47,116 nt of DNA from Marivirga sp. ANT-B6 (GTDB lineage: Bacteria; Bacteroidota; Bacteroidia; Cytophagales; Cyclobacteriaceae). A program made the translations under genes and the position numbers. The notes under the pieces were generated by a model, which saw only the letters and a list, made by a program, of their open reading frames with translations, was not told where the DNA came from and ran no database searches. The stretch lies in NCBI GenBank assembly GCA_001683905.1, contig LXQK01000017.1:49564-96679 (forward strand). Direction: 5' to 3'. Of this stretch, positions 2,026 to 22,545 are shown piece after piece (position 1 is the first letter of the stretch; every line of letters starts with the position of its first letter).

Positions 2026-3072
2026 ATGAAAGATCTAAAATATCTACTGGCTTATTTGATTCCACTTTCCGGAGGGTTGGCGCTGGCTTATCAAGGTGTT
2101 TGGTCTTGGGCAACATTGATATTAGCCTTTATTATTATTCCCATCATCGATACATTTCTGCCCGGTACTACCCAAAATGTTCCTGAAGAAATGGAAGAGA
2201 GCCGTGCTAAGAACGTCTTCTTTGATGTTCTGCTGCTGGCGTGTGCTCCTATCTGTTTTGCACTCACATTTTTTTATTTGTATACGTTAAAAACCACCGT
2301 ACTTACCACTTTCGAGTTAGCTGGTCTAACAATGAGTATCGGCATTGTTTTGGGCGCTACAGGCATCAACGTAGCCCATGAACTAGGACATCGCCCGGGG
2401 AGATTGGAACAATCTTTTGCTAAAAGCATTTTGCTTTTGGTCCTCTATCAGCATTTTTTTATCGAACATAACAGGGGACATCATAAATACGTTTCCACAG
2501 ATGCTGATCCTGCCACAGCCAGAAAAAATGAAATGATTTATCAGTTCATTTTTCGGTCTGTTATTGGCCAATATATGGGTGCATGGAAGCTTGAAAAAAT
2601 TCGATTACAGCGTAGTGGTGATACAATATTGAGCTGGAAAAATGAAATGGTTCGGTTCTCGGTGTATCAAATGAGCTACCTTTTAGTTATAGCGGCTGCT
2701 TTCGGCATACAGTTGATACCATTTGCTATTGCCATTGCCGTAGTAGGGGTATTGCTCTTGGAAATCATCAATTATATAGAGCACTATGGCTTGAAAAGAG
2801 ATATACTGCCTTCCGGCCGTCCGGAACGTGTATTACCCAAACATTCATGGAACAGCAATCAGGATGTTGGTCGCATCATGTTGTTTGAGCTTACACGGCA
2901 CAGCGACCACCATTTTAAGGCATCAAGAAAATATCAGATTTTACGGCATATGGACGAAAGCCCCCAGCTGCCTACCGGCTATCCGGGCAGTATGCTGATG
3001 ACGCTAATCCCCCCCCTTTGGTTTGCTGTGATGAATAAGCGTCTGGAGAAGAGGGAACTAACCAGACATTAA
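2026..3072 (+). CDS. alkB: Alkane 1-monooxygenase, integral-membrane non-haem di-iron hydroxylase
   Basis: This 348-residue membrane protein carries the AlkB histidine motifs in order: 'HELGHRPG', 'HNRGHHKYVSTDADP', 'NYIEHYGLKRD' and 'RHSDHHFKASRKYQ'. Several hydrophobic segments precede and separate them (for example 'LAYLIPLSGGLALAYQG' and 'LLVIAAAFGIQLIPFAIAIAVV'). AlkB inserts oxygen at the terminal carbon of n-alkanes and needs rubredoxin and rubredoxin reductase; neither is present nearby. The length is at the short end of the family. The upstream aldehyde dehydrogenase is 9 bases away, suggesting co-transcription. The substrate range (alkanes or fatty acyl chains) cannot be told from sequence. 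The gene converges on dnaA. Confidence 0.93.
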   Translation: MKDLKYLLAYLIPLSGGLALAYQGVWSWATLILAFIIIPIIDTFLPGTTQNVPEEMEESRAKNVFFDVLLLACAPICFALTFFYLYTLKTTVLTTFELAGLTMSIGIVLGATGINVAHELGHRPGRLEQSFAKSILLLVLYQHFFIEHNRGHHKYVSTDADPATARKNEMIYQFIFRSVIGQYMGAWKLEKIRLQRSGDTILSWKNEMVRFSVYQMSYLLVIAAAFGIQLIPFAIAIAVVGVLLLEIINYIEHYGLKRDILPSGRPERVLPKHSWNSNQDVGRIMLFELTRHSDHHFKASRKYQILRHMDESPQLPTGYPGSMLMTLIPPLWFAVMNKRLEKRELTRH

Positions 3073-6440: not shown

Positions 6441-8264
6441 ATGAAGCATTTAAGCGAAGGGAATAAATTATTTACTGATTTTGCTCCGGCAGACAAAAGG
6501 GCCTGGAAAGAAAAGGTATTGGTTGAATTAGATGGAAAGCCCTACGAAGACCTTTGCTGGAAAACCGATGAAGGCTTCGTAATAGAGCCTTATTTTGATA
6601 AAAAAGATAGTGATCGGGTAAAATATCTCAAAGCTTACCACCACGCACTACAGCCCGACCCATTGCCTGGCCAGGGTCCGCGCTATTGGACTAATACAGA
6701 ACAGATTATTGTGACATCGGAAGTGGAAGCTAATCAACAGGCGCTTGCAGCATTGCAATCAGGCGCTGACGGGCTTTTATTTCTGATTCCTACGAAAAAA
6801 AAGACGTTTAGCCTGGAGGTTTTGCTCAGGGATATTTTGCTTCAATATTGTGCCGTTTCCTTCAGGGTAACGGGTAGCCCCATTGCGTTATTGACCGCCT
6901 ACACCGCCTATTTAGCACAACAAGGTGGCGATAACGAAGCAATTCAGGGAACGATTTTCCAGTCTACCGCTGGTGATTACATGGTCACAAAAGATGCTGG
7001 TTTCTATACAAAACTCCTGAAAGCTAAGCCGGAGAGTAAACATTTTAAACCTATATCGATAGATTTTACTGATTTTCACCACCAGGGGGGGCATGCTGTT
7101 CAGGAAATAGCCTTTGGCCTGCATGCACTGGTTGCGATATTGGATGCTGCCGCCAAAGAAAGTATACAGCCTGCCGTAATCTTTGCCAACATCAGTTTGC
7201 AAGTAGCTGTAGGAACTGATTATTTTAAGGAAATAGCGAAGGTGAAAGTCATTCGGATATTGGTATACGAGCTTGCCAGGATTTACAATGTTACAGGCCT
7301 ACAACCAGAGGAAATACATATACACTGCTACACTTCTTTATGGAGTAAAACCAAATTAGCTACCAGTGTGAATATGCTACGAAATACAACGGAAGCCATG
7401 GCCGCGATCTTAGGTGGCTGCAATGCGTTAACGATTCTCCCTCATGATGTGCTTACGTCGCATCCGACGGCTTTTTCTACACGGATTGCCCGCAATATAT
7501 CTAATATCCTCCGTGAAGAATCGCACTTCAACCTGGTGGTGGACCCATCGGCTGGTTCCTATTATCTGGAGCAGCTAAGCGACCATCTGATTCGGGAAAG
7601 TTGGTTACTATTCCAGGCTGTGGAGGCGAAAGGTGAATTTGGACAGGCACAGGCATTCATACGACAACAATTGGAAGCGTCGAGAGCGAGCAAAGCAAAG
7701 AAGGTAGCTACACGACAAAAAGTAATGGTAGGCACCAGCGACTATATTCATCCTGAACCCCTTCCAGAAGCTTTTTCAGGAGGGGACGTCAAAGATCTTG
7801 CTTCCCATATTCCCTTTAGAAGACTTGCCAAACATATGGAGGCGCTACGCTTAAAGACAGCTACAAATGCCGGTAGAAATATACCCAAAGTACTTGCTTT
7901 GCCTTTATCTCGCCATAAGATGGCTGAAATAAGGATGAGCTTTACAGCCCCTTATTTCTTGTGTGGTGGTTTTGAAACAGAAAAGGGAATGTTTGATGAC
8001 GATGATGAAAAAGGAATTGGGCAGCTTCTATCAACCGATGCTGATATCATCGTTTTTTGTGGTAGCGATGAAGAATATGCTGAAAAGATCCCGATGCTTT
8101 TAAAGCAAATAAAAGATCCCGAAAAATGGATTCTCGCCATAGCGGGGAATCCCGAAAAGCCGGGTATAAGGCAAGATGCCATTCATCATTATATTTATGC
8201 AGGCTCTGATATAGTAGAAACCATTACTTCACTACAAAACAGATTGTTGACACAAAAAACATGA
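6441..8264 (+). CDS. mutA: Methylmalonyl-CoA mutase, small (beta) subunit
   Basis: The 607-residue protein has the mutase TIM-barrel signatures ('[19 protein letters not shown]', '[20 protein letters not shown]', '[16 protein letters not shown]', '[12 protein letters not shown]') and a C-terminal flavodoxin-like domain. That domain lacks the cobalamin-binding DxHxxG motif, as expected for the non-catalytic subunit. It dimerises with the large subunit to interconvert methylmalonyl-CoA and succinyl-CoA. The length fits heterodimeric enzymes. The stop overlaps the start of mutB by 4 bases (ATGA), indicating translational coupling and balanced subunit synthesis. Confidence 0.96.
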
Positions 8265-10396
8265 GACCGGATTTTTCAAAAATAAAATACCAGGACATTA
8301 TCAACAGAAACTCATCTGTGCAAAAATCCGGGTTGGAGGAGGAGCAGATTACCGCTGAAGGGATTCCTGTAAAAGGGGCGTACCATCATGAAGATTTTAA
8401 GGCAATGGAACACGTCGATTTTGCTGCAGGAATACCCCCGTATTTGCGGGGGCCCTATAGTACGATGTATGTGACTAAGCCATGGACAATTCGGCAATAT
8501 GCAGGTTTTTCTACTGCTGAAGAATCAAATGCCTTTTATAGGCGAAATTTAGCCGGTGGTCAAAAAGGGCTTTCCGTTGCATTTGACCTCCCGACACACC
8601 GGGGTTACGACTCCGACCATCCGCGTGTAGTTGGCGATGTAGGCAAGGCTGGTGTGGCCATCGATTCTATTCTGGACATGAAACTACTTTTCGACAAGAT
8701 CCCTCTGGATAAAATGTCGGTTTCTATGACCATGAATGGTGCTGTCTTGCCGATCATGGCTTTCTATATCGTCACCGCAGAAGAGCAAGGTGTAAAACCA
8801 GAGCAGCTCAGCGGTACGATTCAAAATGATATTCTAAAAGAATTCATGGTGCGCAATACGTATATATATCCTCCGGCGCCATCAATGCGCATCATTGCGG
8901 ATATTTTTACCTATACATCCAGACATATGCCGAAATTCAACTCCATCAGTATCAGTGGGTATCATATGCAGGAAGCTGGTGCCACCGCGGATCTCGAGCT
9001 TGCCTATACCCTTGCCGATGGATTGGAGTATCTTCGCACAGGTATCGCAGCCGGGATTGATATTGATGATTTTGCCCCTCGCCTTTCGTTTTTCTGGGCC
9101 ATAGGCATGAACCACTTTATGGAAATCGCCAAAATGAGGGCAGGCAGATTACTTTGGGCAAAAATTGTCAGTGCCTTCAATCCAAAAAATAAAAAATCGC
9201 TTTCGTTGCGTGCTCATTGCCAGACGTCAGGGTGGAGCCTTACTGAACAGGACCCTTTTAATAATGTGAGCCGTACCTGTATTGAGGCCATTGCTGCAGC
9301 ATTGGGCCATACCCAGTCGTTACATACCAATGCGTTGGATGAAGCCATTGCTTTACCCACAGATTTTTCCGCCCGCATTGCTAGAAACACACAGCTGTAC
9401 CTACAGGAAGAAACCAATATTACCAAAGCGATCGATCCATGGGCAGGATCATATTACGTGGAATACCTTACCGAGTCGCTAGTTAAAAAGGCGTGGGCTC
9501 TTATAGAAGAAGTTGAGGAGATGGGGGGCATGGCCAAAGCCATAGAAGCAGGTCTTCCGAAGATGAGGATAGAGGAAGCAGCAGCAAAAAAACAAGCACG
9601 CATCGACGCTGGTAAAGATGTAATAGTGGGCGTTAATAAGTATAAGACTGACGATATATCGCCGTTAGAGCTGCTCGAAGTAGATAATTCTTCGGTCCGC
9701 CTTTCGCAGTTGAAACGACTGGAACAGCTAAAAGAAGAAAGGAATGCTGATGAGGTAGCGGCAGCCCTGTTACAGTTACAGCAGGCCGCCGCCAGTGGCA
9801 AAGGCAATTTATTGGAGCTAGCCATTGATGCCGCAAGAAAAAGAGCCACCTTAGGAGAAATATCAATAGCCATGGAAGAAAGTTTTGGACGACACAAGGC
9901 CACCATAAGATCTATATCAGGTGTGTATGCCGGGGAAGTAGCAGCCAACGAAAGCTTTCGGCAAGCGCTGGAACTTGCTGATACTTTTGCCCGGGTGGAA
10001 GGCCGCCGACCGCGCATCATGGTGGCAAAGATGGGCCAGGACGGTCACGACCGGGGCGCAAAAGTAATTGCGACAAGTTTTGCCGACCTGGGCTTTGATG
10101 TAGATATCGGCCCACTCTTCCAGACGCCTGAGGAAGTTGCCCAGCAGGCCATTGAAAACGATGTACATATCGTTGGGGCGTCGAGCCTTGCGGCGGGTCA
10201 CAAAACGTTGGTACCTCAGCTGATCGAGGCTTTAAAAGCACTTGGACGAGAAGATATAATGGTCGTGGCGGGAGGGGTGATACCACCCAAAGATTATGAT
10301 TTCCTTCATAAGGCTGGTGTTGCGGAGGTTTTTGGACCGGGCACAGTCATAGCTGAGGCAGCCAAAAAGATTCTGAATAAATTATTACAGGCATGA
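8261..10396 (+). CDS. mutB: Methylmalonyl-CoA mutase, large (alpha, catalytic) subunit
   Basis: The 711 residues comprise an N-terminal (beta/alpha)8 barrel, with '[15 protein letters not shown]', '[17 protein letters not shown]' and '[16 protein letters not shown]', and a C-terminal B12-binding domain. In the latter, '[13 protein letters not shown]' supplies the axial His (about residue 596), and '[16 protein letters not shown]' forms the cobalamin pocket. It catalyses the adenosylcobalamin-dependent rearrangement of (R)-methylmalonyl-CoA to succinyl-CoA in propionate and odd-chain metabolism. The gene is coupled to mutA by a 4-base overlap, and meaB follows 24 bases downstream. All expected residues are present, so it should be active if B12 is available. 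Confidence 0.98.
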
Positions 10397-10420
10397 GAAC
10401 TTTCGGGTGGAAAAGAATAA

Positions 10421-11455
10421 ATGGATTATAAACCAAAAAACAGGTTAAGTCCTTCAGCATACACTGAAGGCATACTTGGCGGTGATAAAGTAATATTAAG
10501 TAAGGCTATTACACTGGTAGAAAGCAGCCTACCTGAAGATAATCGCCTGGCGAGAAAGGTATTAGAAAAGGTCTTACCGCATACCGGTAATTCGCTGCGT
10601 ATCGGTATAACAGGTGTACCGGGCGTGGGGAAAAGCACCTTCATAGAAAGCCTCGGTATGATGATCACTGCCGAAAATACGAAACTAGCCGTGCTTGCCA
10701 TCGACCCTAGTAGCCAGCGGTCGAAAGGGAGTATCATGGGCGATAAAACGCGTATGGAAGACCTTGCCCATCACCCACTGGCGTACATCCGCCCCAGTGC
10801 TACAGGCAGTACCCTTGGTGGCGTAAGCCATAAAACAAGAGAGGTCATGTTGCTTTGTGAGGCGGCTGGACATCAAATCATATTAATAGAAACGGTCGGT
10901 GTGGGTCAGTCTGAAATTGCCGTGCATGGCATGGTTGATTTTTTTCTGCTATTGATGCTGGCCGGGGCAGGAGACGAATTGCAAGGCATCAAAAAAGGAA
11001 TCATGGAAATGGCCGATGCAATTGCAATTGTCAAAGCAGATGGCGAAAATATGCAGGCTGCCCTGCAGGCAAAGGGTGCATATCAAAACGCATTACATCT
11101 TTTTCAGCCTTCAGGTACTGGATGGGTACCGCAGGTGGTCACTTGTTCGGCATTGGAGAAAAATGGGTTGAAAGAGATATGGGCGCTTATTCAGCAACAT
11201 CATAGGCATATGCAGAGCAGTGGTCTATTTCAACCGAATCGCGATGGGCAAAACCTGCAATGGATGCATGAAAGCATCAAGCAAAGCTTACTATCAGATT
11301 TCTACGAAAATCCACGCATAGCGCGTACTTTGAAAGTTATAGAAGAAAACGTCGTGAAAGGAAAAATCGCTCCAATCAATGCTGCTCATCAGCTTCTGGC
11401 AAGTTACCATGAAAAAGAAACGCTACCCGGTTCAGGTAGCGCCTCTAAAATCTAA
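10421..11455 (+). CDS. meaB: MeaB/ArgK-family GTPase, methylmalonyl-CoA mutase chaperone
   Basis: This 344-residue G3E GTPase has a P-loop 'GVPGVGKST' at residues 65-73, 'LAIDPSSQRSKGSIMGDKTRM' after it, and the Mg2+/switch motif 'ETVGVGQSE'. MeaB loads adenosylcobalamin into methylmalonyl-CoA mutase and protects it from inactivation, and this gene is the third in the mut operon. The last codons contain a 7-bp hairpin (CGCTACC/GGTAGCG), and the stop region overlaps the convergent DUF2807 gene by 4 bases. Confidence 0.95.
   Translation: MDYKPKNRLSPSAYTEGILGGDKVILSKAITLVESSLPEDNRLARKVLEKVLPHTGNSLRIGITGVPGVGKSTFIESLGMMITAENTKLAVLAIDPSSQRSKGSIMGDKTRMEDLAHHPLAYIRPSATGSTLGGVSHKTREVMLLCEAAGHQIILIETVGVGQSEIAVHGMVDFFLLLMLAGAGDELQGIKKGIMEMADAIAIVKADGENMQAALQAKGAYQNALHLFQPSGTGWVPQVVTCSALEKNGLKEIWALIQQHHRHMQSSGLFQPNRDGQNLQWMHESIKQSLLSDFYENPRIARTLKVIEENVVKGKIAPINAAHQLLASYHEKETLPGSGSASKI
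11421..11441 (-). terminator. Hairpin terminator of the DUF2807 gene, inside the meaB 3' coding end
   Basis: CGCTACC-cggttca-GGTAGCG is a perfect 7-bp stem with a 7-base loop. Read on the minus strand it begins about 10 bases past the DUF2807 stop and is followed by TTTCTTTTTC, a usable U-tract, so it resembles an intrinsic terminator for that gene. On the plus strand no U-run follows. Its bases are also meaB codons. Confidence 0.6.
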
Positions 11456-12230: not shown

Positions 12231-12947
12231 CTAATTTAATTTGAAATCAACATAATGATAGGTTAATTCCTTTTGCATTGAACCACCATTTTCCATTACC
12301 ATAAAAACATGCTTTTCTACAGTTCTGGCACCATTTTCTAGTTTAAGTGGATATCTAAAAATTGGCCCGGTGTACACAAAACTATGATATTCTCCATTTT
12401 CACCACAAGGATCGACCTTAGCCGGTAACTTGCGTATTGATTCTGGTCTTAAGTCGGCGCCAACCATTTCCTCTGGGACTAAGGCATCATTGGCAGCGCA
12501 GATTTTTGTTCTGAATCCGGCTCGAAAAAATTCATCCAAAATAACGTCAGCGGCAAGCCCCCACAAGGGGAAAATAATTTCCAAATCCTGCTCCGCTACA
12601 AGATTTTCCTTATAAATTCTGAGATCTTCCAGGTAGATATCACCACTGATTATGCCATGAACGTTTTGCTGCTTTAATTTATGATAGTATAAGTGCAGCG
12701 TTTCTTCATAAGAAAGTGGTTTTTGGGGTTGGTTGATATATAGCTTTTCCAGTGGTAGACCGATCGACTGGGCTTGTGCGGCGATCAATGTTTCGGAAAC
12801 GCCATGTAATCCTACTTTCTTCGACACTGCATCAATGCTTGTATGCAGGCTGACCACCTCAAACTTTGCCTCTTGCAATGTCCTGTACAATGCTAACGCA
12901 CTATCTTTTCCCCCGCTCCAACTCACCGATACCTTTTTTTTACGCAT
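12231..12947 (-). CDS. Dph6-like ATP pyrophosphatase (adenine nucleotide alpha-hydrolase family)
   Basis: The 238-residue protein begins with a PP-loop 'SWSGGKDSALAL' (residues 9-20), followed by 'GLHGVSETLIAAQAQSIGLP' and the family block 'GEYHSFVYTGPIFRYPL'. These define the diphthamide synthetase-like (COG2102/MJ0570-type) group. The eukaryotic member amidates diphthine on EF2, which bacteria lack, so the substrate here is unknown. It presumably uses ATP to adenylate a carboxylate and transfer nitrogen. The gene lies between the B12-dependent mutase operon and a divergent BtuFCD-like importer, so a link to cobalamin or its salvage is possible but only contextual. Confidence 0.85.
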   Translation of the reverse strand: MRKKKVSVSWSGGKDSALALYRTLQEAKFEVVSLHTSIDAVSKKVGLHGVSETLIAAQAQSIGLPLEKLYINQPQKPLSYEETLHLYYHKLKQQNVHGIISGDIYLEDLRIYKENLVAEQDLEIIFPLWGLAADVILDEFFRAGFRTKICAANDALVPEEMVGADLRPESIRKLPAKVDPCGENGEYHSFVYTGPIFRYPLKLENGARTVEKHVFMVMENGGSMQKELTYHYVDFKLN

Positions 12948-13129
12948 TTGACGTCTATTTCCCTAAACTATTACTTTCGTTCCGATATCTTGCCCATAAA
13001 GTATCATTTTAATCAAATAAAAGAATAAATACTTAACTTAGCCAGCTGAAACTATCTTTTAGAACACCTTTTTTACTTTTTATTCCTGAATAGCAATTTT
13101 ATTGCTGAAAAGTTAACTTGCGATTCAAT

Positions 13130-14293
13130 ATGATCCCGAATTGGAAATTTAAACTTCTGCCAATATTTTCCCTTATTATCTTATTCGCCGACTGCCACCA
13201 GCGGGATAAGGTAGACCAACAGGTCGGGGATGCTGGTGAAATTAAACGAAGTGATTTTAAATATACAACTGGGTTTTCTGTCGCTTATCATCCGGGTTAT
13301 AAAGTAGTGACCGTACATCGCCCGTGGCAAAACGCCACTAAAGGCATAGATTATATCCTTGTACCAAAAGGTGCTCCCCGACCTGATGCAAGGCATGATG
13401 CGCAGATTATAGAAGTTCCTGTGGAAAATATGGTGGTAACTTCTACGACGCATATCCCTTTGCTGTACATGCTCGACGAGTCAGAAAAATTGATAGGTTT
13501 TCCTAATACCGACCTTATTTCATCCGAAGAAGTAAGAAGATTGGTCGATCGAAACCACATCAAAGAATTGGGCATGGGTAGCAACCTGAACCTGGAGGCC
13601 CTAGTAGAGCTGCAGCCTTCTATGGTGATGGCCTTTACCATGGGACCGGTTGATGCGCAGTACAAAAAAATCCAGGAAATGAATATCCCGGTCGTGATCA
13701 ATGCCGATTATCTGGAAACAGACCCTTTGGGCAGGGCAGAATGGATAAAATTTGCGGCCCTATTTTTAGATAAAGAAAAAGAGGCAGACTCGATTTTTGA
13801 TGCGCTGGAGAAAAACTATCTGCATCTGCAGAACCTGGTGGAAAAAGTGGAAGATAAACCTGCCGTTATAACCGGGGTGGTATATAGCGACACCTGGTAT
13901 ATGCCTGGTGGCAAAAGCTGGGCATCCATATTCTTTCAGGATGCCGGCGGTCACTATCCCTGGTCGACGAATAAACAAACAGGAAGTATCCCTTTAAGTT
14001 TTGAGCAGGTTTATGACGTTGCCTCCGGTGCCCCCTTCTGGATAGGTGCCGCATCGTACCAGAGTTTAAGAGAACTGGCAGCTGCAGATAGCCGCTATAC
14101 TGCGTTTGAAGCCTATCAGCAAAATAATGTTTACACTTATAATAAGCGCATGGGTGCAAAGGGAGGCAATGAATTTCTGGAATTAGGATATATGCGTCCG
14201 GATATCATCCTGGCCGACCTGGTGAAGATCATGCACCCTGAAATGCTACCCGACCATACCTTATTTTTTTACCGGAAACTGGATGCAAATTAA
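13130..14293 (+). CDS. ABC importer substrate-binding lipoprotein (BtuF/FecB type; cobalamin or siderophore)
   Basis: The 387-residue protein starts at the ATG at 13130; the tracked ORF's TTG at 13118 adds only four residues. A signal peptide ends in the lipobox 'LFADC', giving an outer-leaflet-anchored protein. The periplasmic-binding fold is seen in 'NMVVTSTTHIPLLYML', 'LGMGSNLNLEALVELQPSMV', 'IPVVINADYLETDP' and 'WYMPGGKSW'. It feeds the permease and ATPase downstream, overlapping the permease start by 11 bases. Ligand identity is not settled by sequence; proximity to the mut operon favours B12, but no cobalamin riboswitch was seen upstream. The upstream 180 bases contain only a small AGCAAT/ATTGCT hairpin. 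Confidence 0.88.
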   Translation: MIPNWKFKLLPIFSLIILFADCHQRDKVDQQVGDAGEIKRSDFKYTTGFSVAYHPGYKVVTVHRPWQNATKGIDYILVPKGAPRPDARHDAQIIEVPVENMVVTSTTHIPLLYMLDESEKLIGFPNTDLISSEEVRRLVDRNHIKELGMGSNLNLEALVELQPSMVMAFTMGPVDAQYKKIQEMNIPVVINADYLETDPLGRAEWIKFAALFLDKEKEADSIFDALEKNYLHLQNLVEKVEDKPAVITGVVYSDTWYMPGGKSWASIFFQDAGGHYPWSTNKQTGSIPLSFEQVYDVASGAPFWIGAASYQSLRELAAADSRYTAFEAYQQNNVYTYNKRMGAKGGNEFLELGYMRPDIILADLVKIMHPEMLPDHTLFFYRKLDAN

Positions 14294-15350
14294 GGACAGT
14301 CCTGCTATGATTCGAACAAGCCATAACCTAAAAACGCTTGCTTTATTGTCATTAACAGTGGTATGTTTTATGTTAGACGTATCTTTAGGATCGGTTTATA
14401 TTCCCTTTCCAGCTATCCTGGATATATTAGGTGGCCAGGAAGCAGAGCGCTCCTCGTGGGTGCAGATCGTGTGGCAATTCAGGTTGCCTAAAGCCATCAC
14501 CGCTATTGCTGCTGGTGCAGGACTTGCCTTGAGTGGGCTACAGATGCAGACTTTATTTAGAAATCCGCTGGCGGGCCCTTTTGTCCTCGGGATCAGTTCA
14601 GGTGCTAGTCTTGGTGTTGCACTTTTAGTAATGGCAGGTTTTTCACTGGGTGGAATCCTTGTACTTGACGGGGCTTATGGTCGTTGGCTGATTGTCATTG
14701 CGGCTAGCATGGGCTCTGGTTTGGTGCTGATGCTGGTTGTTGCTGCTACTATTCGCATCAAAGACAGCATGACCTTATTGATCCTTGGCCTTATGTTTGG
14801 CAGCGCAACTGGAGCCATTGTAAGCGTACTGCAGTTTTTCAGCCAGGCAGATCAGATTCAAGCTTACCTAATCTGGACCTTCGGTAGCCTGGGAGGCTTA
14901 AACTGGCTGGATCTTTACATCCTTATTCCTGTTACTATCGCAGGCGTATTGATCTCTTTGTTTCTATGCAAGCCGCTTAATGCACTCTTATTAGGGGAGA
15001 ACTACGCGCAAAGTATGGGGTTGAACCTAAAAGCTACCAGGCTTTGGATCATCATCAGCACCAGTCTGCTGGCCGGAGCCATCACGGCTTTTTGTGGTCC
15101 TATTGCTTTTGTGGGCATCACCGTGCCGCATTTTGCCCGTATTATTTTTAACACTTCCGATCATAAGGTGCTCATTCCTGCCACGCTAATTAGTGGTGCC
15201 CTGCTCTTGCTGGTTTGTGACATTATTGCCCAGCTTCCCGGACATGAACAGACCTTACCTATCAATGCTGTAACTTCTCTGTTCGGTGCCCCTGTAGTGA
15301 TCTGGATCATTTTGCGCAAAAGAAACATCAGTAAAAACTTTGCAGGATGA
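14283..15350 (+). CDS. ABC importer permease, FecCD/BtuC family
   Basis: This 355-residue polytopic membrane protein has the FecCD landmarks: 'WQFRLPKAITAIAAGAGLALSG', 'LFRNPLAGPFVLGISSGASLG', 'LWIIISTSLLAGAITAFCGPIAFVG' and 'VPHFARIIF'. About nine to ten hydrophobic segments are visible, as expected. It forms the channel with the downstream ATPase. The start at 14283 overlaps the upstream gene; a second ATG at 14307 preceded by AAGGA is an equally good start. The stop overlaps the ATPase start (ATGA). Confidence 0.93.
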   Translation: MQIKDSPAMIRTSHNLKTLALLSLTVVCFMLDVSLGSVYIPFPAILDILGGQEAERSSWVQIVWQFRLPKAITAIAAGAGLALSGLQMQTLFRNPLAGPFVLGISSGASLGVALLVMAGFSLGGILVLDGAYGRWLIVIAASMGSGLVLMLVVAATIRIKDSMTLLILGLMFGSATGAIVSVLQFFSQADQIQAYLIWTFGSLGGLNWLDLYILIPVTIAGVLISLFLCKPLNALLLGENYAQSMGLNLKATRLWIIISTSLLAGAITAFCGPIAFVGITVPHFARIIFNTSDHKVLIPATLISGALLLLVCDIIAQLPGHEQTLPINAVTSLFGAPVVIWIILRKRNISKNFAG

Positions 15351-16369
15351 GTGGATTCGAAGTACATAGCAACATCTTTTTGGAGGCAAAAGCTTTGGCT
15401 ATTGGCTACGGCAGCGGTAAAAGTGAAAAAAGAGTCGCCTCCGAACTCGATATTGTGCTCCATGGGGGTGAAATGGTCTGCCTTCTGGGACCCAATGGAG
15501 CCGGCAAATCCACGCTTCTACGCACCTTAAGTGGCGTTCAAAAGCCGTTGGCTGGTGAGGTGCTTGTAAAAGGTGATGTGCTGGCCAACTTTTCGCGAAG
15601 TCAGCTAGCCAAGGTGATCAGCCTGGTACTTACAGACAAAGTACAGGCAGGCAATCTTACCGCTTTTGACGTGGTAGCATTGGGCCGTTACCCACATACC
15701 GGATGGCAGGACAAGCTGGAAAGCCAGGATCTTGCACAGATTAACTGGGCTTTTGAAGCTACAGGCAGTGAAGTCTTGAGATACGAGAAAATTAACGAGA
15801 TGAGCGACGGTCAGCAGCAGAAAATAATGATCGCCCGCGCGCTTGCACAGGATGGAGATATCATTATATTGGATGAACCTACCGCCCACCTTGACATTGG
15901 TAACCGAACAGAAATCATGCAGTTGCTAAAAACGCTGGCCGAGGTAACGGGCAAAGCCATTCTGGTAGCGACACACGAATTGGATCTGGCGCTACAAACC
16001 GCAGACCAGCTTTGGCTCATGCGACCGCACCAACGAATGGCAACTGGCTTGCCCGAAGATCTGGCCTTGCAGGGCGAACTTAGTGCCTCCTTTGACAGTG
16101 CCGGTTTACAATTCGATTTAAAAGAAGGAAGATTCAAGACAAAAAAAAGCTTTTATAACTCCATCAACGTTTCGGGAACAGGCAATGCCTATATCTGGAC
16201 CTTGCGTGCCCTAAACCGAATTGGCCTGAAACATGATGAATTCGCCAATGAACTGAAATTGGAGGTGCGTGAAACGGAAGACGGTACAATCTGGATATTA
16301 GCCCAAAAAGATGGAGTGCAAACATTTTCTTCGTTAGCCGTTTTGATTCGCCTTTTACGTAGGAAATAA
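15347..16369 (+). CDS. ABC importer ATPase (BtuD/FecE type) with C-terminal extension
   Basis: The 340-residue protein has Walker A 'GPNGAGKST' (about 48-56), signature 'MSDGQQQKIMIARAL', Walker B 'DIIILDEPTAHLD' and the switch His in 'ILVATHELD'. Members of this family are usually about 250-260 residues. Here some 80-90 extra residues follow (from about 'GRFKTKKSFYNSINVSGTG' on), with an alpha/beta appearance, 'WTLRALNRIGLKHDE', and no motif I recognise. Extended versions occur in other Bacteroidota. It drives the importer encoded by the two upstream genes and is the last gene of the operon. Confidence 0.92.
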   Translation: MSGFEVHSNIFLEAKALAIGYGSGKSEKRVASELDIVLHGGEMVCLLGPNGAGKSTLLRTLSGVQKPLAGEVLVKGDVLANFSRSQLAKVISLVLTDKVQAGNLTAFDVVALGRYPHTGWQDKLESQDLAQINWAFEATGSEVLRYEKINEMSDGQQQKIMIARALAQDGDIIILDEPTAHLDIGNRTEIMQLLKTLAEVTGKAILVATHELDLALQTADQLWLMRPHQRMATGLPEDLALQGELSASFDSAGLQFDLKEGRFKTKKSFYNSINVSGTGNAYIWTLRALNRIGLKHDEFANELKLEVRETEDGTIWILAQKDGVQTFSSLAVLIRLLRRK

Positions 16370-16414: not shown

Positions 16415-17851
16415 ATGCACAGGCATACAGCATCTTTTGATTTAATAGTCATTGGCGCGGGGTCCGGCGGACTCAGTGTAAGCCTTGGCTTACTTGAGTT
16501 AGGTCTCAAGGTCTTGATGATCGATAAAAGTGACTGGCATATTGGAGGAGAATGCTTGAACACAGGATGTGTTCCCAGCAAAGCCCTGATTCATATCTCG
16601 CGACTCATCCAACAGGGAAAAAACGCACAGCCTTTTGGGTATCAATTAGACGGCAAAACAGATATGCTTGCTGTAAAACAATACATCAGCGAGAAGCAAC
16701 AGTCAATCAAAGCGCATGAGAATACCGCTTTCCTCAGAAAACAGGGCCTAAACATTGTCTTAGGCACTGCTCATTTTGTTGAAAAAGATACCTTAGAAGT
16801 AGAAGGAAAATGCTATAAAGGTAAAAATATAGTCATAGCCACTGGTTCCAGCCCGCGAAAACTCGATGTGGTCGGACTTGAAAAGCATAAGGTATTTACC
16901 AATGAAAACATCTTTGAACTTGATTACCTGCCAGAAAATTTTCTTTTCGTAGGAGCCGGCCCCAATAGTATAGAATTAGGACAAGCTTTTGCCCGGTTAG
17001 GCTCAAAAGTTACCATCGTAGATCGGGGAGAAAAGATCCTAAGCAAAGATGACCCGGCCATTACGCACGTTTTACAACAGCAATTGATCCAGGAAAATAT
17101 CACATTCTTTTTCAACTCCGAGATTGAAAATTTCAGTCAATCTGAGGCCATTATTAAAAATAAAAATGGTGATACATCATCAGTTCCTGTCGATGCTGTT
17201 TTTACCGGTATTGGGAGGATTTTAAATTTTGAAGACCTGCACCTTCAAAATGCTGGTGTAAAAACAAAAGAAGGTAAGATTCAGGTTAACGATCGCCTAC
17301 AAACCACCAACCCCCAAGTATTTGTATGCGGTGATGCTGCTGGTTCTTTAAAATTCTCTCATGCCGCCGAGCTTCATGCAACAGTACTCATCAATAACTT
17401 TCTTTCACCCTTCAAGAAGAAGCTTGAATTGAAACATTTTCCTTGGGTCACTTTTGCAGATCCCGAAGTAGCTACTTTCGGCTTAAATGAAGGTCAGTTA
17501 AAGAAAAAAAACACGGCATATGAGAGACTTGAGATGGATTTTCAGGAAGATGATCGGGCTACCACCGACAATTATCAGTATGGCAAATTGATTTTATTTG
17601 TCGAGAAAAAAAGATTTAATATAGGTGCTGCAAAAATCCTGGGTGGTAGTATGGTGGCTCCTCATGCAGGTGAAATGACACAGGAACTTATACTTGCAAA
17701 TACGACCGGTATGCCTATCAAGGAGATATTCAACAAGGTATATGCCTATCCTACCTCAGGTCGTGTGAATAAAAAAATTATTTTGGAAAGGTATAGAAAG
17801 CTTGTAAAGCCGTGGCTCCATCTTATCATCAGGGTTTTGTATAGATTTTAA
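16415..17851 (+). CDS. Pyridine nucleotide-disulfide oxidoreductase (MerA/Lpd-like), catalytic His-Glu dyad missing
   Basis: The 478-residue flavoprotein has an N-terminal FAD site 'VIGAGSGGLSVSLGL', the redox-active disulfide 'GGECLNTGCVPSKALIH', an NAD(P) Rossmann motif 'VGAGPNSIELGQAFARLG', and the second FAD motif 'VFVCGDAAGSL'. Dihydrolipoamide dehydrogenases and mercuric reductases end with an HPxxxE or IHxYPTxxE motif that protonates the thiolate. Here the corresponding block is 'VYAYPTSGRVNKK', with neither the His nor the Glu. The C-terminus ends in a hydrophobic/basic helix (KPWLHLIIRVLYRF) that may bind membrane. The substrate is unknown. A TIGR04283 glycosyltransferase follows 6 bases later, suggesting one operon and a specialised, non-lipoamide role. 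Confidence 0.85.
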   Translation: MHRHTASFDLIVIGAGSGGLSVSLGLLELGLKVLMIDKSDWHIGGECLNTGCVPSKALIHISRLIQQGKNAQPFGYQLDGKTDMLAVKQYISEKQQSIKAHENTAFLRKQGLNIVLGTAHFVEKDTLEVEGKCYKGKNIVIATGSSPRKLDVVGLEKHKVFTNENIFELDYLPENFLFVGAGPNSIELGQAFARLGSKVTIVDRGEKILSKDDPAITHVLQQQLIQENITFFFNSEIENFSQSEAIIKNKNGDTSSVPVDAVFTGIGRILNFEDLHLQNAGVKTKEGKIQVNDRLQTTNPQVFVCGDAAGSLKFSHAAELHATVLINNFLSPFKKKLELKHFPWVTFADPEVATFGLNEGQLKKKNTAYERLEMDFQEDDRATTDNYQYGKLILFVEKKRFNIGAAKILGGSMVAPHAGEMTQELILANTTGMPIKEIFNKVYAYPTSGRVNKKIILERYRKLVKPWLHLIIRVLYRF

Positions 17852-17857
17852 GATCTT

Positions 17858-18544
17858 ATGGTTTCCATTATTGTCCCTGCATTAAATGAATCTGCAACAA
17901 TTGACAAGACGCTGGCGAATCTGCAAAATCAACAGGGAGACCACGAAGTCATTGTTGTAGATGGAGGGAGTATAGACGATACCCTGCAGATAGCAGCGTC
18001 GTTTCCAGGCGTTCGTTGTATATCCTCACCCAAGGGTAGGGCTACACAAATGAACATGGGATCTGAATATGCCAACGGTGACATCCTTCTTTTTTTACAT
18101 GCCGATTGCCTACTTCCCAATGATGCTATCGTATCCATTGAGAAAATCCTAAAAGATCCTTCAGTAGGAAGTGGTAGCTTCTATATCCGATTTGATAGCA
18201 GACACTGGTTGTTGAATATCTATTCTTCCGTTAGCCGCATCAACCATCCCGTCTTCACTTATGGCGATCAGGGGATCTTTGTTGTCAAAGAATTATTTAG
18301 AGCTATAGGTGGATTTGAGCCCATGGCGATGATGGAAGATGTGGAGATCCAGGATCGATTACGAAAGCATAAAAGTTTTATAAAAATTTCAAAGCCAATC
18401 GAAACTTCCCATAGAAGATTTACAAGCCATGGGATATTTAAACAACAAATAAAAAATATGGTGCTCATTGGTTTATATAGGCTGGGTGTTTCGGCCGATG
18501 TTCTAAAAAGGTATTATCCAGACCCTGGCACGGCAAAAAAATAG
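17858..18544 (+). CDS. Family 2 glycosyltransferase of the TIGR04283 type
   Basis: The 228-residue protein starts 'VSIIVPALNESATIDKTL', then 'VIVVDGGSIDDT', 'GRATQMNMGSEYANG' and 'LLFLHADCLLP'. The GRAxQMNxG plus LLFLHAD pair is characteristic of TIGR04283 (rSAM/selenodomain-associated transferase 2, also annotated as arsenosugar biosynthesis glycosyltransferase). No membrane segment is evident. In other genomes the family travels with radical SAM, ArsM-like methyltransferase and TIGR04282 genes; none is present here, only the flavin reductase homologue upstream and DUF547 downstream. The acceptor is therefore unknown. The C-terminus (AKK) overlaps the terminator of the convergent gene. Confidence 0.9.
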   Translation: MVSIIVPALNESATIDKTLANLQNQQGDHEVIVVDGGSIDDTLQIAASFPGVRCISSPKGRATQMNMGSEYANGDILLFLHADCLLPNDAIVSIEKILKDPSVGSGSFYIRFDSRHWLLNIYSSVSRINHPVFTYGDQGIFVVKELFRAIGGFEPMAMMEDVEIQDRLRKHKSFIKISKPIETSHRRFTSHGIFKQQIKNMVLIGLYRLGVSADVLKRYYPDPGTAKK

Positions 18545-18598: not shown

Positions 18599-19300
18599 TC
18601 ATATATCGTTCAATGCCCAATCATAGGGATAATAAGTAACTGCATAGGATGCAGGAATTTTTTCTTTACGGTACTTATTCAAATAGGGTAAAATCGATTT
18701 AAAATCACCCTTATACCATTCAAAGATCTGTGAAACTTCAACCTTTTTTTGCCCTTGTTTAACCCTGATAAAATAAGGGTCATTAATAGCCAACTTCGTT
18801 CTTTCCTCTAGTTGCTGCTCTATCTTGCCAGCTTCATATGCAAAAGGAGCAATCTTAGGACAACCTTTTGCCGCGCATACAACGGCAAAATGTATTCGTG
18901 CATCCTGATACGGTTCCAGCAATTTCTTCTTCTCAAGTTCATTTAACGTCAGCTTTTCACCAGCAACCTGGTACTTTACTTTATCAAAAAGGCCAGGTAT
19001 ATCCATGGGAGACTTAACAGGATACTTTGAAGCAATGGCCTTGATCACAATCAAGTTATAGGCGTTAATATAAAAAGCCTTCAGCTCGTCTTTGCTAGCA
19101 CTATTAAGATCTGTTGTAGCTACCACCTGTATTAGCTCCGCCAAATCCTGCGGGTTATTTTTTATTTTTTCATAGTCAACCATTCCCCCGGAAGTATAAT
19201 TTCCTAAGAAATCGTTGATGTCTTTGGTAAACGTTGTGTTGGCAAAACCCACCACGCTCACTGAAAACTGCAATAAATAAGCAAACAAAATTTTCATCAT
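18599..19300 (-). CDS. DUF547 domain protein, exported
   Basis: Starting at the ATG at 19300 (the tracked ORF uses a GTG at 19351), the protein has 233 residues. A signal peptide (KILFAYLLQFSVSVVGFA) precedes a DUF547 domain recognisable by 'AFYINAYNLIVIKAI', 'LTLNELEKKKLL', 'IHFAVVCAAKGCPKI' and 'FEWYKGDF'. The domain has a papain/transglutaminase-like look with a conserved Cys in the 'VCAAKGCP' block, but no activity is established. DUF547 genes commonly occur near TIGR04283 glycosyltransferases in Bacteroidota and proteobacteria (recalled knowledge). It converges on the glycosyltransferase with its own terminator between them. Confidence 0.88.
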   Translation of the reverse strand: MMKILFAYLLQFSVSVVGFANTTFTKDINDFLGNYTSGGMVDYEKIKNNPQDLAELIQVVATTDLNSASKDELKAFYINAYNLIVIKAIASKYPVKSPMDIPGLFDKVKYQVAGEKLTLNELEKKKLLEPYQDARIHFAVVCAAKGCPKIAPFAYEAGKIEQQLEERTKLAINDPYFIRVKQGQKKVEVSQIFEWYKGDFKSILPYLNKYRKEKIPASYAVTYYPYDWALNDI

Positions 19301-19397
19301 CTGGGTGGCAATTTTTGCCTTAATCATCCTGCAAACCAATGAGCCTTCCACATTTATAACCTATCGAAAAAGGCAGGTTTGGTACCGAACGCTACTA

Positions 19398-19599: not shown

Positions 19600-20925
19600 A
19601 TGAAGCACATCGTAATTGTAGGCAATGGAATAGCCGGGATAACGGCAGCCAGACATATTAGAAAACTGAGCAATAACAAGATCACCATCATTTCTGCTGA
19701 ATCAGATCATTTCTATTCGCGTACTGCGCTGATGTATATCTTCATGGGGCATATGAAATATGAGCATACCAAACCCTATGAAGATGGATTTTGGAAGAAA
19801 AACAGGCTGGACCTGTTAAGGGATTATGTAGAAGCTGTCGACGTGAGTCAAAAAACACTAAAGCTACAGCGACAGGGTAAGTTTGCCTATGATATCTTGA
19901 TTATTGCCAGTGGCTCTAAATCCAACAAGTTGGGGTGGCCTGGGCAAGACCTAAAAGGGGTACAGGGCCTTTATAATCTGCAGGACCTTGAAGCAATGGA
20001 GCAAACAACCAAAACGGCCACCCGCGCTGTTATTGTAGGAGGTGGACTTATCGGTATAGAGATGGCTGAAATGCTATTGACACGCAAAATACCTGTCACT
20101 TTGCTGATTCGCGAAGAAAACTATTGGGAAAATGTGCTACCCCCGGAAGAAGCAGCCTTGGTAAGCAGGCAAATCAAATCGCATCATGTCGACCTACGCA
20201 ATAAAACCGAGCTTCAGGAGATATTATCTGATGCCAATGGGGCTGTAGCGAGTGTGTTGACGAAGAATGGCGAAGAAATACCCTGCCAACTGGTAGGTTT
20301 AACGGTCGGTGTAAGCCCCGCCATCGATTTCCTGAAAGGTAGTACCATCAAGACTGACCGGGGAATACTGGTGAATCGGTTTTTTGAAACCAATATAGAA
20401 GATATCTATGCGATCGGCGATTGTGCCCAGTTTATCGAACCTCCGATCGGAAGGAAAGCTATAGAACAGGTTTGGTATACTGGTAGGATGCATGGCGAAA
20501 CCCTTGCCTATACGATTTGTAACCAAAAGGTAGCGTATAATCCAGGCCCCTGGTTTAATTCGGCTAAATTTATGGATATAGAGTACCAGATTTATGGTGA
20601 AGTAAGCGCGCAACCTCAGGCACATGAAAAACATATTTACTGGGAGCATGAAAACGGCCAGCAATCAATCAGGATAGTTTATCACGTGGCGACGCGAAAA
20701 GTTATAGGATTTAACCTAATGGGTGTTCGGTATAAGCATGCGGTATGTAATGCCTGGCTGGAAAACGAGGCGATTATTACGGAGGTGATGCAAAACTTAA
20801 GGCATGCCAATTTTGATCCCGAATTTTTTAAAAAATACGAAGAAGATGTAGTGCATCAGTATAATTTAATGGAGCCTGAACAGCCTATTGAAGTGAGGAA
20901 AAAAAAGTTCTGGAAGATTTTTTAA
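19600..20925 (+). CDS. FAD-dependent NAD(P) oxidoreductase, partner of a membrane polyferredoxin
   Basis: The ATG at 19600 gives 441 residues starting 'MKHIVIVGNGIAGITAARH', an ideal FAD Rossmann motif; the tracked TTG start adds 14 unneeded residues. The central NAD(P) site reads 'AVIVGGGLIGIEMAEMLL', and 'IEDIYAIGDCAQF' is the second FAD motif. The family is the nitrite reductase/rubredoxin reductase/apoptosis-inducing-factor-like group. After residue 320 there is an extra ~120-residue C-terminal domain (with 'FNSAKFMDIEYQIYGEV') ending in a basic tail (KKKFWKIF). The next gene starts 36 bases later and encodes a NapH-like iron-sulfur membrane protein, so the flavoprotein probably passes electrons from NAD(P)H to it, or the reverse. 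The terminal acceptor is unknown. Confidence 0.85.
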   Translation: MKHIVIVGNGIAGITAARHIRKLSNNKITIISAESDHFYSRTALMYIFMGHMKYEHTKPYEDGFWKKNRLDLLRDYVEAVDVSQKTLKLQRQGKFAYDILIIASGSKSNKLGWPGQDLKGVQGLYNLQDLEAMEQTTKTATRAVIVGGGLIGIEMAEMLLTRKIPVTLLIREENYWENVLPPEEAALVSRQIKSHHVDLRNKTELQEILSDANGAVASVLTKNGEEIPCQLVGLTVGVSPAIDFLKGSTIKTDRGILVNRFFETNIEDIYAIGDCAQFIEPPIGRKAIEQVWYTGRMHGETLAYTICNQKVAYNPGPWFNSAKFMDIEYQIYGEVSAQPQAHEKHIYWEHENGQQSIRIVYHVATRKVIGFNLMGVRYKHAVCNAWLENEAIITEVMQNLRHANFDPEFFKKYEEDVVHQYNLMEPEQPIEVRKKKFWKIF

Positions 20926-20961
20926 GCATGAAGTGAAAACTTGGAACAGCATATAAAAAAA

Positions 20962-22545
20962 ATGATGACTAAAATAATTCAAAAGACTGGAATGGCTTTA
21001 TTTATAGCTGCCATTGCGATATTAATAGGTTCCCTTTTTATCAGTAACTACCAGCTTGCCGATGAGGTACTGAAAGAAGTAATTAGTGAAAGCCAATTAC
21101 CTCACTTTAAGCAGAATATCGAAGAAATAAAAGGCAGGACTTATACCTCGAAATTTATTTTTTTGAACGATCTGGATAAGGTTATCCAGTCAACCAACAC
21201 CAGTATCAATGACTACAACCAGATCGGCAATCAAAATCTCGACAACGTATCTTCAATAGACGACTATAATGCTGGTGAGTATAAAGTCAAACTCACTAAA
21301 AAAGCGACCCAAGGGATTTTGACTGATCACTCGCTGTTGATGTTATGGTTAACGTTTGGTTTGGGTATAATTGGTGCTCTGCTTTATATTATTCCAAAGA
21401 TTGCCAAAAGCCCAGGCATAAAAAACGACCACATCTTCCACAGTGCCAATACCAGTGGAAAGGGATGGATAGGATATATAATTGGTGGCCTTCTGATTCT
21501 CTTCTATGTGCTGCTTTACTGGTATCCGCAGTATATTACAGAATGGATCCTGTTGATGGATCCTATCAGCTATAGCCTGAATGGCGGAGAGGCAAGCCGA
21601 TGGTTTTTTTACGGCTTTCTGTACACCCTCGCTATTGTGGTGATGGGGGTAAGGATGATCATTAAATACCGGCACAGCAAATACCATATTATCCGTACTA
21701 TTTCGGTCATGTTTTTCCAAACAGCCTTTGCCTTTTTAATACCAGAGATCCTGATCAGGCTCAATCAGCCCAGCATGGATTTAAAAAATATCTGGCCGTT
21801 AAATTATAATTTCTTTTATGATTATAACCTTGAATCTTTGCTAAGCAGTGGAAACCTGGGTTTGTTTATGTTGATTTGGGGCATTTTATTGATCGTGTTA
21901 GCCGTACCGCTTTTTTCCTATTTCTATGGCAAACGATGGTACTGTTCCTGGGTTTGCGGATGTGGCGGGCTTGCCGAAACGCTTGGCGATCCATACAGGC
22001 AATTGTCGGACAAGTCAGTAAAAGCCTGGAAAATCGAACGGTGGATGATCCATGGGGTATTAGTATTTGCCATTGTAATGACATCAGCTGTATTATATAC
22101 TTTCTTTACGGGCTCGGGAAGTTTCCTGTTTATGGACTCTTATACCATAAGGCAGGTATACGGATTTTTAATTGGTGCAGCATTCGCAGGAGTTGTTGGC
22201 GTAGGCTTTTATCCATTTATGGGCAACAGGGTTTGGTGCCGGTTTGGGTGCCCGCTCGCTGCTTATATCGGGCTGGTGCAGCGATTTAAGTCGCGTTTCC
22301 GCATAACCACCAATGGTGGGCAATGCATTTCCTGTGGCAATTGTTCTACCTATTGTGAAATGGGCATTGATGTACGGTGGTACGCACAACGGGGACAAAA
22401 TATTATAAGATCCTCCTGTGTTGGCTGTGGTATATGCTCCTCTGTTTGTCCACGTGGAGTTTTAAAACTAGAAAACGGACCTGAAGCAGGCAGGTTTGGA
22501 GCCCCAATCCTGATAGGAAACAAGAGCATAACCCTTGAGAAATAA
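20962..22545 (+). CDS. Membrane-bound 4Fe-4S polyferredoxin, NapH/NosR/CcoG-like
   Basis: The start is placed at the ATG at 20962 (527 residues); the tracked TTG lies 21 bases upstream. About eight transmembrane segments are visible, with a soluble loop between the first two. Cys motifs 'WYCSWVCGCGG' and 'VWCRFGCPL' lie at membrane edges, as in NosR and NapH. Two ferredoxin motifs follow: 'CISCGNCSTYCEMGIDV' and 'CVGCGICSSVCPRGVL'. Such proteins carry electrons across or along the membrane to periplasmic reductases or assembly systems. No nap, nos or cco genes are nearby. Tight linkage with the upstream flavoprotein suggests a two-protein NAD(P)H-linked electron transfer unit. Confidence 0.88.
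   Translation: MMTKIIQKTGMALFIAAIAILIGSLFISNYQLADEVLKEVISESQLPHFKQNIEEIKGRTYTSKFIFLNDLDKVIQSTNTSINDYNQIGNQNLDNVSSIDDYNAGEYKVKLTKKATQGILTDHSLLMLWLTFGLGIIGALLYIIPKIAKSPGIKNDHIFHSANTSGKGWIGYIIGGLLILFYVLLYWYPQYITEWILLMDPISYSLNGGEASRWFFYGFLYTLAIVVMGVRMIIKYRHSKYHIIRTISVMFFQTAFAFLIPEILIRLNQPSMDLKNIWPLNYNFFYDYNLESLLSSGNLGLFMLIWGILLIVLAVPLFSYFYGKRWYCSWVCGCGGLAETLGDPYRQLSDKSVKAWKIERWMIHGVLVFAIVMTSAVLYTFFTGSGSFLFMDSYTIRQVYGFLIGAAFAGVVGVGFYPFMGNRVWCRFGCPLAAYIGLVQRFKSRFRITTNGGQCISCGNCSTYCEMGIDVRWYAQRGQNIIRSSCVGCGICSSVCPRGVLKLENGPEAGRFGAPILIGNKSITLEK

Follow-up and report, generated by a model that had tools for sequence, protein, structure and literature searches.

The window analysed here is a stretch of 47,116 nucleotides from Marivirga sp. 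ANT-B6. It holds two neighbouring genes, referred to below as FAD and PF. FAD (19600..20925, + strand) encodes a NAD(P)H flavoprotein of the ferredoxin-reductase type, as assigned from the ORF, Pfam, homologue alignment and an AF2 model. The protein has 441 aa when counted from ATG, and the mechanical ORF begins earlier, at TTG 19558. PF (20962..22545, + strand) follows after a gap of 36 bp and encodes a membrane polyferredoxin of the NapH/NosR type, with 527 aa from ATG (ORF, Pfam, NCBIfam and hydropathy).

The flavoprotein matches Pyr_redox_2 in Pfam (5.7e-50) and its AF2 model has a mean pLDDT of 89.8. With Foldseek, this model aligns over ~395-420 columns with TodA and BphA4 chains of 400-406 residues, at target TM-scores of ~0.85, and only ~35 C-terminal residues lie beyond the TodA/BphA4 fold. 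Because the model fits ferredoxin reductases end to end, the “extra” C-terminal domain mentioned in the initial annotation is the ordinary third domain; the rubredoxin-reductase-like class given there is upheld by Pfam, AF2 and Foldseek. A redox-active cysteine pair was sought in the homologue alignment and none was found, C275 of the GDC motif being the sole invariant cysteine. Judged by sequence and model, the protein has the fold of the one-electron ferredoxin reductases, with FAD, NAD(P) and third domains and no active-site disulfide. Furthermore, R171, located after the NAD(P)-binding motif, is invariant in the 36 homologues of the same alignment. Its codon (20110..20112, + strand) lies in the stretch LLIREE, which we take to resemble the NADPH-binding IRH of glutathione reductase. 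Together, the arginine and this likeness suggest that NADPH may be preferred over NADH.

As for PF, it matches the Fer4_5 and Fer4 dicluster models of Pfam. Averaging hydropathy over 38 homologues resolves 8 transmembrane (TM) segments, in line with the about eight proposed at the outset. Loop charges, read by the positive-inside rule, place all cysteine motifs and the C-terminus on the predicted cytoplasmic face, which answers the earlier call for a topology prediction. The two additional cysteine pairs first noticed correspond to a CX3CXC motif (C328, C332, C334; 21943..21963, + strand) in the predicted cytoplasmic loop between TM6 and TM7, and to a CX3CP motif (C426, C430, P431; 22237..22254, + strand) on the predicted cytoplasmic side past TM8. 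The cysteines of both are invariant in the 38 homologues. The two expected 4Fe-4S sites form a 2x[4Fe-4S] ferredoxin domain (C455..C465, C486..C496-P; 22324..22452, + strand; Pfam and alignment) at the C-terminus. The N-terminal TM segment and the periplasmic loop (about residues 28-118) are variable and missing from some homologues, and the TM segments hold conserved aromatic and polar residues. Across the 38 homologues there is no conserved periplasmic cysteine, and PF has no conserved TM histidine pair suggestive of haem. The AF2 model of PF is moderate (mean pLDDT 73). Its fold is uninformative because the ferredoxin domain stays below 50, and Foldseek returned no PDB match at E<=0.001.

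The best NCBIfam match of PF is NapH/MauN TIGR02163, at 65.8 bits against a cut-off of 213.05. This match is what speaks for PF being a CcoG-like cytochrome oxidase assembly factor, or a NapH/NosR homologue serving nitrogen-oxide respiration, a reading to which we give an almost negligible probability. The score is far under the family cut-off, and the check for CcoG suggested earlier found no such model among the NCBIfam matches at E<=1e-3. The Pfam scan gave no FMN-binding domain (FMN_bind, the periplasmic domain of NosR). Compared with the NapH/MauN pattern of two CX3CP motifs and 2x[4Fe-4S], PF has both [4Fe-4S] sites and CX3CP as its second motif, with CX3CXC as its first; this motif, the 8 TM segments and the dedicated flavoprotein partner all differ from the known families. 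The statement that nap, nos and cco genes are missing nearby also holds, with none among the scanned ORFs of the window and none recognised among the recurrent neighbours of PF in ~140 loci. On family scores, motifs and neighbours, we reject membership of PF in CcoG, NapH or NosR. It is best seen as a new variant among polyferredoxins of the NapH/NosR type, set apart by a reductase of its own and by its glycan context.

The distribution of the two genes shows that FAD and PF form a genuine unit. Of 149 genomes sampled in the window's family, 117 have PF and 112 have FAD, and FAD never occurs without PF; the PF count excludes one weak match, set aside as an unrelated ferredoxin (genome G080). 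Five family genomes have PF without FAD, several of these PF matches being at contig ends. In 110/111 family genomes compared, PF is immediately preceded by FAD on the same strand. Outside the family, six genomes showed no adjacent FAD at first pass; the gene was found in all of them, adjacent in 4 and on another contig in 2. One genome (G120) carries a natural fusion of FAD (1-439) and PF (434-954) in a single 958-aa ORF (L208:5018-7894, - strand) on a 4.66-Mb contig, and the two are separate in a genome of the same genus. This survey of conservation and linkage bears out the uncharacterised two-gene electron-transfer unit that had been proposed. In other Bacteroidota and on a Pseudoalteromonas plasmid, a YpdA-like flavoprotein is fused to a PF with the same cysteine signature, and the two such Bacteroidota genomes examined have no standalone FAD. 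The joining of two different flavoproteins to one type of PF offers good support for the view that PF receives electrons from the flavoprotein.

Gene neighbourhoods around PF were read in 60 loci of 12-18 kb and in 80 named loci. The recurrent neighbours are GT3 (a polyprenyl-phosphate-sugar-synthase-like GT2), GT4 (a cellulose-synthase-like GT2 with QxxRW), GT5 (a GT87-like membrane enzyme), DUF547, TIGR04282, TIGR04283, an exported rhodanese (NF045521) and a lipoprotein termed c19. Some lineages add ArsS, ArsM, PNP and TIGR04169. This neighbourhood, absent from the initial annotation, is the chief pointer to what the pair is for. The Pfam GT87 match of GT5 is marginal, at 24.6 bits against a cut-off of 25 for the Pseudoalteromonas homologue, and the Bacteroidota query gave none. 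The c19 proteins have ~275-330 aa, a near-invariant lipobox cysteine and an invariant EWCG motif (e.g. L209:8730-9560 and L162:15688-16539); the one member scanned has no Pfam match. DUF547, c19 and the rhodanese near PF appear to be exported and have conserved cysteines. In its fullest form the operon has the order FAD-PF-GT3-GT4-GT5-TIGR04282-c19, its genes overlapping or abutting; of the two genomes read, one also has a divergent DUF547 gene there. The fusions with the YpdA-like flavoprotein also sit in operons with GT3, GT4, GT5, TIGR04282 and TIGR04283. On the plasmid of Pseudoalteromonas sp. Bsw20308 the order is GT4-GT5-fusion-GT3-TIGR04282-TIGR04283 (fusion at L110:10393-12747), and the plasmid yielded no ArsS above cut-off.

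The window retains two of these neighbours beside FAD-PF. One is a TIGR04283 glycosyltransferase (17858..18544, + strand; NCBIfam, 241.9 bits against a cut-off of 182), a family that is also part of arsenosugar loci. The other is a divergent gene for a predicted exported DUF547 protein with a conserved CA..sCP motif (18599..19327, - strand; Pfam and neighbourhood survey). DUF547 is a neighbour of the pair in 24/58 and 41/80 loci. Elsewhere in this genome, GT4-GT5 and a c19 homologue are found on another contig, and ArsS-TIGR04169-TIGR04282 on a third. A MerA/lipoamide-dehydrogenase-like FAD oxidoreductase (16415..17851, + strand; Pfam and NCBIfam) immediately precedes the TIGR04283 gene. Its top NCBIfam match, NF004991, is under cut-off, and its membership in the system is uncertain.

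Genes for a BtuF/BtuC/BtuD-like ABC importer (13118..16369, + strand; NCBIfam and neighbourhood survey) come before it, and a protein of the Diphthamide synthase (Diphthami_syn_2) family at 12231-12947 adjoins the BtuF-like gene. Further upstream, the window has genes for two methylmalonyl-CoA mutase subunits and MeaB (6441-11455). Importer genes of this kind also occur beside FAD-PF elsewhere, mainly in loci of the window's family. A B12 link of FAD-PF through them was considered and set aside, since the mutase and MeaB genes explain the importer better; it is more probably tied to the window's methylmalonyl-CoA mutase than to FAD-PF. Two other suggested partners found no support. The exported SMP-30-like gene, thought of as a downstream partner, has one other homologue in ~140 loci, six genes away and on the opposite strand. 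A link to AlkB, presumably the FA_desaturase (AlkB-like) protein at 2026-3072, involves a gene >16 kb from FAD-PF, of a family not recognised among the recurrent neighbours of PF.

Presence and absence across genomes tell which companion is tight. In the family sample, 115 of the 149 genomes have both PF and GT5, 2 have PF only, 2 have GT5 only and 30 have neither (agreement 145/149, phi 0.92). This co-inheritance holds even where the genes are unlinked, as in the genome of the window. Agreement with PF is 107/149 for ArsS (phi 0.51) and 101/149 for TIGR04283 (phi 0.45). These counts come from related genomes, so p-values overstate independence and figures with one genome per genus are safer; the phi values with PF are then 0.89 for GT5, 0.58 for ArsS and 0.48 for TIGR04283. 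Of the 297 genomes in a phylum sample, 66 contain PF (in either form) together with GT5, and 6 and 11 are discordant; among the class-level genomes listed, the presence sets of the two are identical (30/30). GT5 alone of the three glycosyltransferases was profiled in this way, GT3 and GT4 being tied to it by gene order. The lipoprotein c19 is found in 86 genomes of the family sample, all with PF. We conclude from these profiles that PF goes with the glycosyltransferase module; the arsenosugar genes often accompany it but can be separated from it.

The separability bears on the reading of FAD-PF as reductant for the radical SAM enzyme ArsS, with the ferredoxin domain of PF feeding arsenosugar synthesis. 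A review describes a radical SAM enzyme as adenosylating arsenic in oxo-arsenosugar biosynthesis (PMC12159101, citing Cheng et al. 2021 on ArsS). PF is present in 76/77 family genomes with ArsS, several flavobacterial loci have ArsS, ArsM, PNP, TIGR04282, DUF547 and TIGR04283 within 10 kb upstream of FAD-PF, and the window's genome has ArsS, although on a different contig. Nevertheless, 41 family genomes with PF have no detected ArsS, 73 genomes of the phylum sample have ArsS without PF, and the phi with ArsS is well below that with GT5. A soluble ferredoxin would suffice for such a role, with no need for 8 TM helices. The profiles thus disfavour ArsS as the acceptor, and we regard this reading as very improbable.

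The pair might also be a general NAD(P)H:menaquinone oxidoreductase, a side entry to respiration unrelated to glycans. The partnership of NapH-type proteins with the quinone pool is well established, and the conserved aromatic and polar residues inside the TM segments would fit, but this leaves the near-perfect co-inheritance with GT5 and the operon with GT3-GT4-GT5 unaccounted for, and we consider it improbable. Unlikely, in our judgement, is a transmembrane thiol reductant that passes electrons to exported cysteine proteins (DUF547, c19, rhodanese) and does the job of DsbD by other chemistry. These proteins recur near PF with their conserved cysteines, and c19 is confined to PF-containing genomes. 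Against it, PF itself offers no conserved periplasmic cysteine, many PF loci are without c19 and rhodanese, and DUF547 is a broad family whose cysteine motif may serve otherwise.

We consider it reasonably probable that FAD-PF is a module dedicated to carrying electrons from NAD(P)H to the membrane for an uncharacterised glycoconjugate pathway of Bacteroidota. From genomic data, this is the best reading of the pairing and fusions, the co-inheritance of PF with GT5, the joint operon and the restriction of c19. On the basis of the fold classes, motifs, predicted topology, pairing, fusion and co-inheritance, we infer an electron path and a reductive step. NAD(P)H would reduce the flavoprotein, which would hand on electrons one at a time to the ferredoxin domain of PF in the cytoplasm, and from there they may pass to clusters at CX3CXC/CX3CP on the membrane face. 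These clusters could power a reductive step whose substrate is a glycan intermediate linked to a lipid or to the membrane, or else a thiol partner in the periplasm, for which DUF547, the c19 lipoprotein and the exported rhodanese are candidates, none being in every PF locus. In genomes that carry ArsM/ArsS genes, arsenosugar units may be processed by this pathway as well.

Several points weigh against the glycoconjugate reading. The cysteine clusters are all predicted cytoplasmic and there is no conserved TM histidine pair suggestive of haem, an arrangement that offers electrons no evident path across the membrane. Co-inheritance is no proof of a shared reaction, and losses in related genomes are not fully independent. 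In addition, the GT87 match of GT5 is marginal, and GT5 occurs without PF in two genomes. More specifically, and only tentatively, we propose redox-dependent glycosylation, in which PF and its own NAD(P)H reductase would power a reductive step in which the substrate is a glycan linked to polyprenyl or lipid, with arsenosugar units also entering in some Bacteroidota. To our knowledge, no glycan assembly system described so far employs a NapH-type polyferredoxin, and a literature search on the FAD-PF/glycosyltransferase gene set found no description of it. If the proposal is true, a widespread, unstudied gene set of Bacteroidota uses iron-sulphur clusters to couple NAD(P)H to the synthesis of membrane glycans or glycolipids. 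A function open to testing would then exist for a large family so far known by its 4Fe-4S motifs alone, for a GT87-like enzyme, for DUF547 and for an unnamed lipoprotein, and there would be a hint of the place where bacterial arsenosugars could have their lipid or glycan portion synthesised.

Finally, the system can be compared with known ones. FAD shares with BphA4, TodA and putidaredoxin reductase the three-domain fold along its whole length, without redox-active disulfide, and should, like them, donate electrons singly to an Fe-S protein. It differs in having a membrane polyferredoxin as partner, a short extra C-terminal tail and, at R171, a residue that suggests NADPH rather than NADH. PF resembles NapH/MauN (TIGR02163) and the NosR/RdhC-type proteins as a membrane protein with CX3CP-type motifs at the predicted cytoplasmic face and a C-terminal 2x[4Fe-4S] domain. 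Unlike them, it has 8 TM segments instead of about 4, one extra invariant cysteine in its first motif (CX3CXC), no FMN-binding match, a score far under the family cut-off, and its own flavoprotein and glycosyltransferases alongside. The YpdA-like flavoprotein-polyferredoxin fusions (e.g. WP_007378779.1, Pseudoalteromonas) have the cysteine signature of PF and the same surroundings of GT3, GT4, GT5, TIGR04282 and TIGR04283, whereas their flavoprotein belongs to another family and is fused at the N-terminus of PF. With the arsenosugar biosynthesis set (ArsM, ArsS, TIGR04282, TIGR04283, TIGR04169), FAD-PF has TIGR04282 and TIGR04283 as common neighbours and forms one cluster with ArsS/ArsM in several Bacteroidota, yet it occurs in many genomes without ArsS and is absent from many that have it.
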